From positions 170,744 to 234,743 of the forward strand of contig JACDEU010000001.1 in assembly GCA_013816245.1 (NCBI GenBank): a DNA stretch of 64,000 nt, in the 5' to 3' direction. Shown here one piece after another: positions 26,017-39,977 of this stretch. How positions within the stretch are numbered: position 1 is the first letter of the stretch; each line of letters begins with the position of its first letter. The notes under the pieces are model-generated. The model saw nothing but the letters and a program-made list of their open reading frames with translations, was not told the origin of the DNA and searched no databases. Source of the stretch: Actinomycetota bacterium (lineage in GTDB: Bacteria; Actinomycetota; Thermoleophilia; Gaiellales; Gaiellaceae). Position numbers and translations under genes: made by a program.

Positions 26017-26106
26017 TCATTCCCGGGGGCCGAGGAAGAAGAAGACGAGCACGAGGACGCCCAAGATCGCGGCTCCGACCGCTACGGCGTTGAGCACCGA
26101 GGTCAC
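26017..26106 (-). CDS. 29-residue single-span membrane protein
   Basis: GTG 26106 overlaps the zincin stop (GTGA). The product is one hydrophobic helix of about 22 residues (AVAVGAAILGVLVLVFFFLG) ending PRE. Coupling to the upstream peptidase gene and the clean helix support a real small membrane protein, but no homologue is known to me. Confidence 0.55.
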   Translation of the reverse strand: MTSVLNAVAVGAAILGVLVLVFFFLGPRE

Positions 26107-26405
26107 CGGTAGCCAAGCTCCTCGAGCCGCTCCTCGTCGATCCCGAAGTAGTGGGCCAGCTCGTGGAGGACGGTGATCCGGATCTGCCTCTGAAGCTCCG
26201 CGGGGTCGTCTCCGAACTCCTCCTCGAGCGGCCGCCGATAGACGGTGATCTTGGCCGGCAGGTACGGCTCCTCCTCGAAGAGCCCGAACACATCCGGCTC
26301 GTCGGGGCTCTCCTCCTCGACGACCACCGCGACGTTCTCGAGCCCGGCGGCAAGATCCGCCGGAAGCCCGTCCAGGGCGACCTGGACGTGCTCCTCGAAG
26401 CCCAT
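26103..26405 (-). CDS. Zincin-like metallopeptidase family protein (PF06262-type)
   Basis: 100 residues from ATG 26405; the longer open frame upstream is shadow of the rhomboid gene. The family pattern is complete: NVAVVVEEE near residue 25, GLFEE, ITVYRRPLEEEF (residues 53-64) and VLHELAHYFGIDEERLEELGY, with the HExxH zinc motif at residues 81-85 and a Glu further along. These are minimal soluble zincins of unknown substrate, common in Actinomycetota. It starts 3 bases after the rhomboid protease gene, so both proteases are in one operon. Confidence 0.88.
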   Translation of the reverse strand: MGFEEHVQVALDGLPADLAAGLENVAVVVEEESPDEPDVFGLFEEEPYLPAKITVYRRPLEEEFGDDPAELQRQIRITVLHELAHYFGIDEERLEELGYR

Positions 26406-26407
26406 CA

Positions 26408-27112
26408 CTAGTACTTCGGCATCAGCGGCCGGCGCACGGCCACCAGCCGGACGGTCAGTACGCCGAAGAGGAAACCGCCGATGTGAGCGAAGAACGCGAC
26501 GCCGCCGCCTGCCTCCGGCTGCACGATCGAGAAGCCGCCCTGCCAGAGCTGGAACAGGAACCAGAAGCCGAGAAAGAAGATCGCCGGGAGCTCCTGGAAG
26601 AAGATCAGGATGAAGAAGATCGCCGTCAGCACACGCGCGTTCGGCAGCAGCACGAAGTACGCCCCGAGCACCGCGGCGATTGCACCGCTTGCGCCGATGT
26701 TGGGGATGCTCGCATCCTGCGCTGAGCCCCAGTGAAGAGTCACGACGGTCTGTGCCGCCGTAGCCGCGAGCCCGCCCGCGATGTACCAGAGGAAGAAGCG
26801 GACTTTGCCGAGGGCGTCCTCGACGTTGTTCCCGAAGATCCAGAGAAAGAGCATGTTGAAGATGATGTGCTCCCAGCCGCCGTGCATGAACATCGAAGTG
26901 AACGCGTTCTCGTACCACGGGATCGCGGCGTTCAACGCGGGCCCAAGGCACGGACCGTCGACCTTGCACGGGTAGTAGCCGTAGTGGATGACGTCGGTGT
27001 CGACCGTTGTGCCGGTGAACTCCCAGATCCACACGATCACGTTCACGACGATGATTCCGACCGTGACGATCGGAAACGTCCTGGTCGGGACGTTGTCCTT
27101 CAGCGGCAGCAT
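26408..27112 (-). CDS. Rhomboid family intramembrane serine protease
   Basis: 234 residues, six to seven hydrophobic helices. The catalytic Ser142 is in NIGASGAI and the catalytic His210 in FFAHIGGFLFG; the MHGGWEHIIFNMLFLW segment (residues 76-91) is the usual helix-2 signature with conserved His and Asn. The large loop between helices 1 and 2 contains two Cys (YYPCK, GPCLG). It cleaves membrane-protein substrates inside the bilayer. First gene of a unit with the zincin and very small proteins. Confidence 0.92.
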   Translation of the reverse strand: MLPLKDNVPTRTFPIVTVGIIVVNVIVWIWEFTGTTVDTDVIHYGYYPCKVDGPCLGPALNAAIPWYENAFTSMFMHGGWEHIIFNMLFLWIFGNNVEDALGKVRFFLWYIAGGLAATAAQTVVTLHWGSAQDASIPNIGASGAIAAVLGAYFVLLPNARVLTAIFFILIFFQELPAIFFLGFWFLFQLWQGGFSIVQPEAGGGVAFFAHIGGFLFGVLTVRLVAVRRPLMPKY

Positions 27113-35466: not shown

Positions 35467-36990
35467 AGGGCTCCTGGCCGGGAGGGTTTCGACCGGCGCG
35501 AGCTACTCGCTCGGGGCGGCCGTTTCGCCCTGGGCGGAGCGGCGCTGGTCGCGCTTCCGGGCTGGGTCACTGTCGGCTCGCCCTCGACGGTCGATCCGCG
35601 GCTCACCGAATTGACGCAACTGGTGCAGGGCACGGTGGTGACACCGGCCGACGCCGCCTACGACTCGGCGCGGCGCCTCTACAGCCCCCGCTACGACACC
35701 GTCCGCCCGGGCGCGATCGTCTTCTGCGAGACCACACAGGACGTCTGGCGCACCGTGCGTTGGGCGAGGCGGCACTCGATTCGAGTCGTCGCGCGCGCCG
35801 GCGGACATAGCTATGCGGGCTACTCGACGTGTCAAGGCGTCGTCGTCGACGTCACGCGCCTGAGCAACGTCACCGTGAACATCGCGGCGGGAACGGCGAC
35901 GGTCGGCGCGGGCGCGAGGCTCATCGACGTCGACCAGCAGCTCTTCCAGAACGGCGTGATGATTCCGGCGGGGTCGTGCCCCACCGTCGGCATCGCGGGA
36001 CTGACACTCGGTGGCGGCCACGGTTTCTCCGGTCGGAAGTACGGCCTGACGTGCGACAACCTCCGCTCGCTGACGATCGTGACTGCGAACGGGCAAGCGC
36101 TCCTTGCGAGCCAGACGCAGCATCCGGATCTCTTCTGGGCCTGCCGCGGCGGTGGTGCGGGGCAGTTCGGGATCGTGACCAGCTTCGTCTTCAACACGCA
36201 TCCGGCAACCGATGTGTCCACGTATCGCGCGACGTGGAACTGGAGCGACGCCGCCAAGATCGTCGCGGCCTGGCAGGCGTGGGCGCCGACTGCGCCCGAT
36301 GAGCTGTTCTCGATGTGCGACCTGATCGCGACCGACGGCCTGGGTGGGCCGATCGTGGCGTCGAACGGCCAGTACTTCGGCAGTACCGCCGCCTTGCAGA
36401 CGCTCCTTAAGCCGCTCGTCAATGCCGCGCCGCCGAAGACGATGGAGATCCGTTTCCGGTCGTTCCTCAACGCAGCGCTCGACTGGGCCAACTGCTCGGA
36501 GGTCGCTCGCTGTCACATCGCGGTCCCGAATGCTGAAGTCGGGCGCTCCGACTTCCTCGCCAAGTCCGACTACGTCGCGACGCCGCTGCCGAGCGACGGG
36601 ATCCAGGCGATGACCCAGAAGATCGAGGAGCGCCGGAACGACCCGACGCTCGGAGGCGGCAGCATCCTCATGGACGCCTACGGCGGTGCTATTAACCGCG
36701 TCGCCAAGAATGCCACCGCGTTCGTGCACCGCGACCAGCTCTTCTCTATCCAGTACGTCGCGGGGAGCTCGACTGCGGCCGACGCGGACTGGCTGCGCGC
36801 GCTCCGTGGAGCGATCGCGCCGTTCGTATCCGGTCAGGCGTACCAGAACTACATCGACCCGGAGCTCCAGCAGCCGAACGTCGCGTACTACGCGTCGAAC
36901 CTGCCGCGTCTGCGGACGGTCAAGGCTCGCTACGACCCGAAGAACGTGTTTCGGTTCTATCGGAGCGTTCTTCCCGCAGCTCCGTCCTGA
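35455..36990 (+). CDS. Tat-exported FAD-linked oxidase (BBE/GOOX type)
   Basis: 511 residues. FDRRELLARGG (residues 12-22) plus a hydrophobic stretch is a twin-arginine signal. The PCMH-type FAD domain has RAGGHSYAGYS (His118) and AGSCPTVGIAGLTLGGG (Cys175), the two residues that bind FAD covalently in berberine-bridge and glucooligosaccharide oxidases; the C-terminal YYASNLPRLRTVKARYDPKNVF is the BBE motif. Likely an extracellular oxidase of sugars or alcohols giving H2O2. GTG 35455 lies in a palindrome and has no clear ribosome site. Its 3' end overlaps the convergent membrane gene by 71 bases. Confidence 0.9.
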   Translation: MSDTRAPGREGFDRRELLARGGRFALGGAALVALPGWVTVGSPSTVDPRLTELTQLVQGTVVTPADAAYDSARRLYSPRYDTVRPGAIVFCETTQDVWRTVRWARRHSIRVVARAGGHSYAGYSTCQGVVVDVTRLSNVTVNIAAGTATVGAGARLIDVDQQLFQNGVMIPAGSCPTVGIAGLTLGGGHGFSGRKYGLTCDNLRSLTIVTANGQALLASQTQHPDLFWACRGGGAGQFGIVTSFVFNTHPATDVSTYRATWNWSDAAKIVAAWQAWAPTAPDELFSMCDLIATDGLGGPIVASNGQYFGSTAALQTLLKPLVNAAPPKTMEIRFRSFLNAALDWANCSEVARCHIAVPNAEVGRSDFLAKSDYVATPLPSDGIQAMTQKIEERRNDPTLGGGSILMDAYGGAINRVAKNATAFVHRDQLFSIQYVAGSSTAADADWLRALRGAIAPFVSGQAYQNYIDPELQQPNVAYYASNLPRLRTVKARYDPKNVFRFYRSVLPAAPS

Positions 36991-37672
36991 CGCGCGTCCA
37001 CAGCAGGTCGCCATTCGCGAGCAAGAACCCGAGTGCGAGCAGCGGCAGCGCCGGCAGGCCGCCGATGTCACGCCACACGGCAAGCGCAAGCGTCGCGCCG
37101 AAGGACACCGTCAGCAACGCCCAGGTCAGCCGCGTCCGCAAGTTCCAGCGCACCGCCGCCGCCAGGAAGAGGGAGAAGAACAGCAGGTCGGGCAGGCCGA
37201 GGTTCGCCGCCGCGGTCTCGCCGGGGATCGGAAACGCGAATGAGAAGTTCGTGAAGACGTTGCGGTGCTCGTTCACGATCACCTTCGTGGGGCCCCGCCA
37301 CACCGAGTAGGCATCGACCCACGGGATGATCAGCGCCACGAGCACGATCCAGCTCAGACTCTCGAAGTAACGTAGGAACCAGAAGCCGAGCGCCGTGACG
37401 CCGAAGAGCTTGCAGAAGTTCTCCGGCGTGCTCGCGCCCGCCAGGTGAAGAAGAAACGCCGCGAGGCCGAATGCCAGGGCGGCCAACGCGAGGCCAGGGG
37501 CCACACGCAGCGGCAGCACGAGCCAGACGAGCGCAAAACACGCTGGGATGAGCACGAACGACAAGAACGCGATGTCCCACCACGTCGATGCATCCCACAG
37601 CCGATCGTGGGACGAGTAGTAGAGCCCGAGCGCCGTCCCGAGTACTAGTAGGGCGGCAGCTCGGCCCACCAT
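36920..37672 (-). CDS. Membrane protein with presenilin-like D / GLPD / PALP motifs
   Basis: 250 residues from ATG 37672 (the frame opens at 37699; GTG 37669 is possible). Seven to eight hydrophobic helices. Asp120 lies at the end of a helix in IIPWVDAYSVWRGPTK, Asp162 starts the next helix in NLGLPDLLFF (GLPD at 159-162), and PALP (207-210) opens the last helix. This order and membrane placement match the YD, GxGD and PAL motifs of presenilin/signal-peptide-peptidase aspartyl proteases, although YD is VD and GxGD is GLPD. Function is inference. Overlaps the glycosylase-like gene start-side by 28 bases, so both are in one operon. Confidence 0.7.
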   Translation of the reverse strand: MVGRAAALLVLGTALGLYYSSHDRLWDASTWWDIAFLSFVLIPACFALVWLVLPLRVAPGLALAALAFGLAAFLLHLAGASTPENFCKLFGVTALGFWFLRYFESLSWIVLVALIIPWVDAYSVWRGPTKVIVNEHRNVFTNFSFAFPIPGETAAANLGLPDLLFFSLFLAAAVRWNLRTRLTWALLTVSFGATLALAVWRDIGGLPALPLLALGFLLANGDLLWTRVRTELREERSDRTETRSSGRSEP

Positions 37673-38223
37673 TGGCCGAGTGGCTTGAAGGCGTTCCAAA
37701 ACTGAGTCTTGGCGGGAGCTTCGTCGAGCGCCGTGTCGATGTCGGGGACCACGAGGACCTGCCCTGTCGGCGTGAAGCGCTGGAGCTCTCCCGGCTTGTA
37801 CTCAACCTTATCCGCGAGCGGAAACTCGACCGAGTTCAGATACTCGACCGTGGACTCTCCCATCGCCACGATCAGCTTCGGCTGCACGATGTGCAGCTCG
37901 CGGGTGAGAAAGGGGCGTGACTCTTCCTCGTCACCGTCTGTGAACTTGACGCAGTTGGTGCCGTAGACCGACATCGGATCGACATGCAGGCGTTGCAGGG
38001 ACTTCAGGATCGCCTGGCCCGCGCGCCCGTAGAACGCGACTCCCTCCTGAACCTCCGCCGGTTGCGGCTTGAACTTCAGCAGCATCACGTCGCCAAGCGG
38101 GTGCCCTGAGCCGACCACGGGCACGCGCGGCCCGCCCGTCCGCGCCACCTCGTGCGCGAGATCGTTGATCTCGACGATGGCCTTCTGGAGGTACTTCTCG
38201 TAGATCTCGTCGGTCGCCGGCAC
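37645..38223 (-). CDS. Uracil-DNA-glycosylase-superfamily protein (degenerate family 4-like)
   Basis: 192 residues from GTG 38223 with GGAGAG just upstream; a longer ATG start would overlap the preceding gene. Family 4 features: VPVVGSGHPLGDVMLL, GVAFYGRAGQAILKSLQRLHVDP and YGTNCVKF. However, the catalytic GEAPG motif is replaced by KFKPQP and the four iron-sulfur Cys are missing (one Cys remains). It may be a glycosylase with altered chemistry or a non-catalytic relative. It is in a minus-strand operon after the glycosyltransferase-PHP gene. Confidence 0.75.
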   Translation of the reverse strand: MPATDEIYEKYLQKAIVEINDLAHEVARTGGPRVPVVGSGHPLGDVMLLKFKPQPAEVQEGVAFYGRAGQAILKSLQRLHVDPMSVYGTNCVKFTDGDEEESRPFLTRELHIVQPKLIVAMGESTVEYLNSVEFPLADKVEYKPGELQRFTPTGQVLVVPDIDTALDEAPAKTQFWNAFKPLGQWWAELPPY

Positions 38224-38243
38224 GGCTCTCTCCAGGTTCGGGA

Positions 38244-39977
38244 CTAGCGAACCCGTTCCTTGGCCTGGGCCATCCACTTGAGGGACTGGAGGTACACGAG
38301 CGACCTCGGACGCCGGAGAACCTGCGCCGACTGCAGGCTGACGAGGAACTCCTCCCGGCCGCGGAAAGCCCGCATCCGCAGGGCGCCGGTGCCCACCCCC
38401 TGGAGCACGTGAGCGTCGGAGCCCGCCCCCATAGTCAGGTTGTACTTCCGGGCGAAGCGCAGTGCCTCGTCGTTGTAGGCCTCGAAGAGCAGGCGGGCGT
38501 TGTAGACCTCGAAGATGTCGATGTCGGCGAGGTGGCGCTGCAGCGTCGCCGGATCGGCGATTGAATGCATGCGGTCGAACGGATGAGGGAGGTAGACGAC
38601 GCCGTCCTGCTCCCTGATCGCCGCGACGGTTTCCGCGAAGGACATCCCGCGCGGGATCTCCTCTCGCAGATACAGGCCGATCACCTCGCCCTGACCGCCG
38701 GTCTTGATCTCCTCGCCGGGGATGACGACCAGTTCATGATCGGCCGCGAGCTGTGCGGTCTCGAGCGCGCCGCCGATGATGTTGTGGTCGGTGACGGCGA
38801 TCGCGCCGAGGCCGATCGCCTCGGCATGCATGACCAGGTCTGCCGGATCGACCGCGCAGTCGTGCGACCAGCTCGTGTGCATGTGGAGATCGCAGAGGAT
38901 CCATTCGCGGTCTGCGAGCGGCTCCACGGCTGCGCGCGGCGCATGCCGTCGCTTCGTGAGCTCCTGGTATAGCGCGTCGAGCTCACGAGCGACCTCGGCG
39001 AAGCTCTGCCCCTCGGCCCCAGCGAGTGCACGCCCGGCTTTCCGACGCCGAAAGCCGGGATCCTCGGCGAGGCGTGCGACCTCGGCGCCGGCGAGCTCGG
39101 GCTGCTCTCGCATTCCCGGCGGAGCCGCAATCGCACAACCGGTTGCGGATGCTTCGAGCCGCACGCGGTTCAGCCCGGCGAGCGCAGGCACGAAGATGCT
39201 GGTCTCCGCGAGGAGGGGCGCTCTCGCGGCGCCGTCACGAGCCGTTCGCATGTGCACGCGGTCGCGAAGAGGGCGCGGGATCGTCGGTCGTCCTGCCAGC
39301 GGCTTCGTCCGCAGCAACAGCAACTCCCAGTCGGGCAGCTCTTCCAGCGCACGGAACACGCCGCGCAGCAGAGCGCGCTCGTTCGGGCGCCACTCGAGGA
39401 CGATCAGGTTGCGCTTCGCGCCAGGCCGGAATAGCGTCGGGTCGACTCCCTCGCCGACGACGCGGTACTGCCCCGGGAAACGTGCAGCCGCCACCTCGGC
39501 CGTCTCGTCGCTCGTCGAGACGAGTGCATCCAGTCGTGCGAGCAGACGGTCGCGCTGCGCCTTGCCGGGCGGGTATGCAAGACGCTCGGGCGAGAGAAAA
39601 GATGCGACCGCCAGCCCCTGTGCATCGCGCAGCGCGAGATACGAAAGCGAGGGCAGGCCGGGCTCGAAGCCGTGCACGACGTCGAAGCGGCCGAGCGCGA
39701 GGGCCAGCGAGAGATTTGCCCGCACACCGACCGGGACCCCGATGCGGCTTCGCCGCGAGATCGGCATGGCCGGGCCGAGCACGACCACCTCCGAATCGAG
39801 CCCGTCCAGAAGCGCACGGCGCCCGGCAGCCAGGTCACGGGCGCGGTTCGATGACGCAAGCACGGTCACGGAATGGCCAAGGCCGCGTAGCTCGTTTGCA
39901 ACGCCCGTCACGTGCTCGTTGACGTCGTGCGGCTGCGACCAGGCGAAAGGGGTGACGAGGCAGATCCGAAGACCCAT
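38244..39977 (-). CDS. Glycosyltransferase (GT4-like) fused to a PHP phosphoesterase
   Basis: 577 residues. Residues 1 to about 340 follow the GT-B glycosyltransferase 4 pattern (CLVTPFAW at the start, VANELRGLGHSVTVLAS, FDVVHGFEPG, GEGVDPTLFRPG, VRLEASATGCAI). Residues 358-577 form a PHP domain with DLHMHTSWSHDC (363-374), TDHNIIGG (396-403), GEEIKT, and GSDAHV, all metal ligands present. The fusion implies sugar-nucleotide transfer coupled to phosphate removal, perhaps on an envelope glycan or glycolipid; this is inference. Confidence 0.85.
   Translation of the reverse strand: MGLRICLVTPFAWSQPHDVNEHVTGVANELRGLGHSVTVLASSNRARDLAAGRRALLDGLDSEVVVLGPAMPISRRSRIGVPVGVRANLSLALALGRFDVVHGFEPGLPSLSYLALRDAQGLAVASFLSPERLAYPPGKAQRDRLLARLDALVSTSDETAEVAAARFPGQYRVVGEGVDPTLFRPGAKRNLIVLEWRPNERALLRGVFRALEELPDWELLLLRTKPLAGRPTIPRPLRDRVHMRTARDGAARAPLLAETSIFVPALAGLNRVRLEASATGCAIAAPPGMREQPELAGAEVARLAEDPGFRRRKAGRALAGAEGQSFAEVARELDALYQELTKRRHAPRAAVEPLADREWILCDLHMHTSWSHDCAVDPADLVMHAEAIGLGAIAVTDHNIIGGALETAQLAADHELVVIPGEEIKTGGQGEVIGLYLREEIPRGMSFAETVAAIREQDGVVYLPHPFDRMHSIADPATLQRHLADIDIFEVYNARLLFEAYNDEALRFARKYNLTMGAGSDAHVLQGVGTGALRMRAFRGREEFLVSLQSAQVLRRPRSLVYLQSLKWMAQAKERVR

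Follow-up and report, generated by a model that had tools for sequence, protein, structure and literature searches.

Do bacteria possess a membrane protein of the presenilin kind and, if so, does it cut its substrates within the bilayer? This question is raised by an open reading frame (ORF) located at positions 36920..37672 of the window, i.e. the whole 64,000-nt stretch that was analysed, which originates from a soil-type Actinomycetota bacterium (Gaiellaceae; GCA_013816245.1, contig JACDEU010000001.1, 170,744-234,743, forward strand). In the original prediction, this ORF was a candidate presenilin-like aspartyl protease. The first half of that description stood, on the evidence of profile searches, hhalign, predicted fold and conservation: the window protein is a true bacterial relative of presenilin and belongs to an unannotated protein family. 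The second half, protease activity, is what the sequence would lead one to expect. As a whole, we consider it likely that the family is a member of the presenilin superfamily acting as a compact eight-helix intramembrane aspartyl protease with a cytosolic partner resembling uracil-DNA glycosylase (UDG), by the mechanism proposed below.

The presenilin-like ORF and its key residues

The two Asp residues and the proline motif were found at the residues originally given (Asp120 in VDAYSV, Asp162 in GLPD and P207-A-L-P210). The corresponding features are the following:

36920..37672, minus strand: presenilin-like protein of 250 aa with eight transmembrane (TM) helices, ATG at 37672, stop at 36920-36922 (ORF, family, Protein Data Bank (PDB) profile, AlphaFold2 (AF2) and Foldseek evidence)
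37313..37315, minus strand: GAT codon of Asp120, first putative catalytic Asp, in VDAYSV of TM5, aligned with presenilin D257 (TM6, YD)
37187..37189, minus strand: GAC codon of Asp162, second putative catalytic Asp, in GLPD of TM6, aligned with presenilin D385 (TM7, GLGD)
37043..37054, minus strand: PALP, residues 207-210, at the start of TM8, aligned with presenilin PALP (TM9)
37196..37243, minus strand: beta hairpin, residues 144-159 (AF2 DSSP strands 144-148 and 155-159), directly preceding the second Asp and the site of a fibronectin type III (FN3) insertion in two related genera

The gene is present as a single copy in its own genome. An alternative start is possible at a TTG located 27 nt upstream of the ATG, and conservation of the N-terminus MVGRAAALL does not independently support the start codon, given that the same stretch encodes, in another frame, the conserved C-terminus of the UDG-like protein.

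Sequence homology and predicted fold

Profiles of the family were searched against 177,635 PDB sequences. With the first family profile, the significant matches were presenilins only, with E-values of 6e-6 for presenilin-2 (PS2) and 9e-5 for presenilin-1 (PS1). With a more diverse profile, to which a second lineage (see below) was added, presenilins were again the only significant matches, and the values reached 9.4e-14 for PS2 and 4.5e-12 for PS1. This latter alignment is a single stretch, extending over profile positions 16-221 and PS2 positions 148-422, i.e. presenilin TM2-TM9, with both catalytic Asp residues and PAL in register: 'DlfSV..faGPTkalve' lies opposite 'DLVAVLCPKGPLRMLVE', GxxD opposite GLGD and LPALP opposite LPALP, the loop that separates both Asp residues in presenilin being an insertion relative to the family profile. 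Profile-profile comparison also matched the family to PS1/PS2 (hhalign E-value of 2.6e-6, probability 88.7, for a target of just two sequences, which came from the alignments printed by the PDB search). When a PS2 fragment was used as query, only gamma-secretase chains were retrieved from the PDB sequences.

Concerning the Pfam profiles, some relatives matched PF01080 with E-values from 0.006 to 1.6e-6, the latter being the best of 77 members. None of the proteins of 119 genomes of the window's own class passed the curated PF01080 cut-off of 34.3 bits, and PF06550 had no match in these 119 genomes, the archaeal controls being positive; the anticipated failure of standard profiles on this family was thereby confirmed. 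A match to DUF4267 (E-value of 4e-4 over residues 90-129; 29 of the 77 members matched, with a best value of 6e-5) is a 40-residue helix match below the cut-off, and was set aside as a local membrane-helix resemblance.

The AF2 model, obtained with 77 family sequences, has a predicted local distance difference test score (pLDDT) of 95.3 and a predicted template modelling score (pTM) of 0.90, and displays eight long helices. Asp120 is in helix 5, the hairpin is formed by residues 144-148 and 155-159, Asp162 is at the start of helix 6 and PALP at the start of helix 8. In the Foldseek search against the PDB, the top 20 matches were all PS1, PS2 or SPPL2a (best probability 1.00, E-value of 7.8e-4), and matches outside the presenilin/SPPL family had probabilities below 0.2. 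The predicted structure is therefore presenilin-like in its overall fold.

Distribution and conservation of the family

A genome search of the same class (399 genomes, 128 genera) detected relatives in 156 genomes and 63 genera. A second lineage was found by profile search in another class of the phylum Actinomycetota (12 of 39 genomes), possibly Rubrobacteria to judge from how large that class is and from its one family. Beyond those two classes, a 396-genome sample of the phylum provided one weak and partial match only.

The alignment of 91 relatives from same-class loci has a median pairwise identity of 38% and a minimum of 23%. In these 91 sequences, D120, S123, V124, G127, G159, D162, F165, L178 and P210 are 100% conserved, and the exact PALP is present in 84. 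Residues D120, S123, G127, G159, D162, F165, L178, A208 and P210 are invariant when the second lineage is included. D120, D162 and, in most sequences, PALP are thus conserved in homologues, and no homologue lacking either Asp was found. Since D120, D162 and P210 are fully conserved and PALP nearly so across the 91 relatives, the motif pattern is not due to chance.

As for the origin of the gene, no plasmid match was found for it and no viral relative was found for its product, and a mobile or viral gene was rejected on these two grounds. The gene was also considered as a substitute for other intramembrane or membrane proteases. For S2P this was rejected, given that 117 of the 119 class genomes encode M50 (S2P) themselves. 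For SppA it is not supported: SppA (S49), which is missing from the window's genome, is rare in the class (above the cut-off in 11 of 119 genomes), and most genomes with SppA also carry the presenilin-like gene.

Gene neighbourhood

Two genes located upstream on the same strand form a conserved block with the presenilin-like gene:

37645..38277, minus strand: UDG-superfamily protein with altered catalytic motifs (GSGHP, PDID) and a C-terminal PPY (PF03167, E-value of 8e-9)
38244..39977, minus strand: glycosyltransferase-4 / PHP-domain (GT-PHP) protein, whose gene opens the conserved block (Pfam)

The DNA-glycosylase-like neighbour of the original prediction is real: it lies directly upstream, its last 28 nt overlapping the presenilin-like gene. 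A UDG-like gene is the direct upstream neighbour in 90 of the 91 loci, a few of which have a gene-sized gap; the remaining locus is near a contig end. The GT-PHP gene was matched in 82 of the 91. The catalytic motifs of family-4 UDGs are GEAPG and an HP motif. In the UDG-like protein, GEAPG is replaced by GSGHP and the HP motif by PDID, and the C-terminal PPY is near-invariant. An ordinary DNA repair operon driven by UDG was rejected, since these motifs are altered and the protein is further degenerate in the second class.

Within the class, the GT-PHP gene, like the UDG-like gene, is also present in genomes devoid of the presenilin-like gene, and the synteny could therefore reflect inheritance. 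In the second class, a further degenerated UDG-like protein is encoded immediately upstream in nine loci (hidden Markov model E-values from 1.9e-13 to 6e-10), and all other neighbours found differ from those of the main class. The pair alone is thus conserved across two different gene contexts, which suggests that the UDG-like protein and the presenilin-like protein are functionally coupled. From this pairing, a role of the UDG-like protein as the cytoplasmic partner of the presenilin-like protein is, on balance, probable.

The 38244-39977 protein is itself a fusion of a GT4-type glycosyltransferase with a PHP/CehA-McbA-type metallohydrolase, and its gene adjoins the UDG-like gene throughout the class.

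Is the protein an active protease?

Several observations weigh against an active presenilin-type protease. The window protein alone matched PF01080 with an E-value of only 4.5 (6.4 bits), albeit in the correct register (residues 153-211 on profile positions 329-388). The Foldseek TM-scores are about 0.5 and the root-mean-square deviations are high, so that the match is one of fold and not of detailed geometry. Presenilin TM1 has no counterpart in the family, which has eight helices vs. nine TM in presenilin. The UDG-like gene is present in 363 of 398 class genomes, many of which lack the presenilin-like gene; this frequency also makes the uncharacterised UDG-fold family interesting in its own right. 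The Tyr of the YD motif is replaced by Val, Ile, Ala, Thr, Met or Leu, mostly by one of the first three. Finally, the residue preceding the second Asp, which is Gly in GxGD, is Gly in none of the 91 relatives: GxPD was found in 58, GxSD in 25, GxTD in 5, GxAD in 2 and GxVD in 1.

The lack of a significant Pfam presenilin match for the window sequence alone would suit an unrelated polytopic membrane protein in which the D..D..PALP pattern arose by chance. Such a protein is contradicted by the profile and profile-profile searches, by the predicted fold and by conservation across the family, and the Foldseek and PDB profile matches refute it in practice. A chance motif was consequently ruled out, and we regard this explanation as hardly credible.

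Of all the arguments against assuming activity, the loss of the GxGD glycine is the strongest, and it is our main doubt. In PS1, this Gly is required for both endoproteolysis and activity (PMC2647162), and its replacement throughout the family is a graver departure than the original prediction had allowed. It would be expected of a presenilin-fold pseudoprotease, in which the Asp pair would be structural or would bind ions or protons, the protein acting on membrane proteins as their scaffold or inhibitor, together with its UDG-like partner; the altered catalytic motifs of that partner point the same way. However, both Asp residues are retained in every relative, and PALP nearly so, at 38% median identity, whereas a pseudoprotease family usually contains lineages in which catalytic residues have been lost. 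A pseudoprotease therefore seems unlikely, and catalysis by the presenilin-like protein, as its conserved motifs and homology would have it, quite probable.

The 91-sequence alignment also contains conserved polar residues in or near helices, namely K88, T194, N220 and D222. These residues would be compatible with a presenilin-fold protein that leaks or transports cations (Ca2+) and cuts proteins as a secondary activity or not at all, and PMC7997004, citing Kuo et al., reports that archaeal presenilin homologues are ion channels as well as proteases. Conservation is nevertheless concentrated on the catalytic motifs, and no transporter or channel family was matched by more than one member, which leaves a channel very improbable.

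Membrane orientation and proposed mechanism

In the main class, the mean net charge is positive at the N-terminus and in loops 2-3 and 6-7, and negative in loops 1-2, 3-4 and 7-8. For the second lineage, positive charge was found at both termini and in loops 4-5 and 6-7, and negative charge in loops 1-2 and 3-4. Minor contrary points are, in the main class, the weakly negative loop 4-5 and the balanced charge of the last 20 residues, and, in the second lineage, the near-neutral loop 2-3.

Some relatives carry additional domains. An insert of about 100 residues was found in the TM5-TM6 loop in genera g12 and g14, which are related (loci L060-L067, e.g. L063:4025-5104, minus strand). Modelled by AF2, it forms a sandwich of seven strands that runs on from the active-site hairpin, and it matched FN3 domains with Foldseek probabilities of mostly 0.96-1.00, the Pfam fn3 match being weak. 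Bacterial FN3 domains are usually extracytoplasmic. Located between the helices that bear the catalytic Asp residues, this FN3-like insert is a possible substrate gate. At the C-terminus, a calcineurin-like phosphoesterase (metallophosphoesterase) is fused in two homologues (L031:50-1498 and L032:563-1993, both minus strand), and two others have an extension of about 280 residues (L083:4073-5611 and L084:4094-5629, both plus strand) without a Pfam match above the cut-off, which by eye looks like a soluble S-adenosylmethionine-dependent methyltransferase or nucleotide-binding enzyme. Both the phosphoesterase and this extension are cytosolic-type domains. In L046:3774-5078 (minus strand) and L047:1785-3302 (plus strand), the C-terminus is extended by about 90 conserved aa, which have no Pfam match above the cut-off.

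Because of the positive-inside charges, the FN3 insert in the active-site loop and the cytosolic-type C-terminal fusions, there is a good probability that both termini are inside and the active-site loop outside, i.e. that the orientation is that of signal peptide peptidases (SPPs) and the inverse of that of presenilin. SPPs cut N-in (type II) proteins and presenilins type I proteins (PMC7768045); with an SPP-like orientation, the likely substrates would therefore be N-in (type II) membrane proteins. We put forward this substrate class with low confidence, candidates being signal-peptide remnants or membrane-bound regulators.

In the proposed mechanism, both termini would be cytoplasmic and the active-site loop outside, and Asp120 and Asp162, side by side in the bilayer, would activate a water molecule and cut the substrate helix. 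The substrate would unwind and be added as a strand to the active-site hairpin, held there by PALP. A hairpin in this position, just ahead of the second Asp, is reminiscent of substrate-bound gamma-secretase, in which strands of the enzyme take part in a hybrid sheet (PMC10290658). The UDG-like protein, encoded by an overlapping gene and probably translationally coupled, would be a probable cytoplasmic partner or regulator. Given a presenilin relative in which both Asp residues are kept in every relative examined, intramembrane cutting by a presenilin-type enzyme probably takes place in bacteria.

Comparison with known families

Presenilin-1/-2 (PF01080, MEROPS A22A), the catalytic subunit of the Alzheimer's-linked gamma-secretase, provided the best sequence and fold matches. 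Besides the alignable TM2-TM9, they share with the family the Asp at the YD position with a GP motif after it (KGPLRMLVE / RGPTKVIV), the Asp at the GxxD position, the exact PALP and the hairpin before the second Asp. The family differs from them by its eight helices and absence of TM1, by Val instead of Tyr before the first Asp and Pro/Ser/Thr instead of Gly before the second, by the short TM5-TM6 loop of most members and by the UDG-like pairing. Presenilin has nine TM, with a cytosolic N-terminus and an outside C-terminus, whereas the eight predicted helices of the family would place both termini inside.

SPP/SPPL (PF04258, A22B) share the two Asp residues in adjacent helices and PAL, the active site would probably be oriented in the same way, and SPPL2a is among the top fold matches; the family has eight TM instead of nine and lacks the GxGD Gly. 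The archaeal PSH/MCMJR1 proteins (PF06550) are likewise a prokaryotic, stand-alone di-Asp intramembrane protease family, but their profile finds no member in the 119 class genomes. Neither SPP/SPPL nor archaeal PSH chains were among the PDB matches of the family profile or of the PS2 fragment, the presence of PSH in that library being unconfirmed; a closer kinship of the family with eukaryotic presenilin than archaeal PSH has would, with that proviso, be suggested by sequence matches. Type 4 prepilin peptidases (PF01478, A24) are also bacterial polytopic di-Asp proteases, and GxGD is their motif too. They differ in that their Asp residues lie in soluble parts of the protein and cleavage takes place outside the membrane (PMC2947513). 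PF01478 did not match the window protein and was not among the 25 Pfam families listed for the 77 members.

No bacterial presenilin homologue was found in the open literature, where only archaeal and eukaryotic ones appear, subscription papers and bioRxiv being outside the search; members without a name may already be present in sequence databases. What is new is a bacterial branch of the presenilin superfamily without the GxGD glycine and TM1. More speculatively, the family could be a bacterial branch of presenilin proper, closer in sequence to eukaryotic presenilin than archaeal PSH/SPP proteins are, i.e. a minimal eight-helix, non-GxGD protease of SPP-like orientation that forms a unit with a repurposed UDG-fold protein and links a cytoplasmic nucleic-acid or nucleotide signal to intramembrane cutting; this we regard as possible but doubtful. 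A bacterial relative of small size and with one chain only would offer a simple model of gamma-secretase chemistry, and the family would test the real need for the GxGD glycine and TM1. It also bears on the origin of eukaryotic presenilin, and its pairing with a degenerate UDG-fold protein raises a new, testable question on bacterial membrane signalling.

Other protease genes in the window

The original prediction had also invoked the proximity of a rhomboid protease. The rhomboid gene exists, at 26408-27112, but at a distance of about 10 kb and in a different gene group, and for this reason it carries no weight here. In the same region (26103-27112, minus strand), the rhomboid gene is followed by a frame whose end resembles a zincin-type metalloprotease (HELAHYFGID); neither has a connection with the presenilin-like gene.
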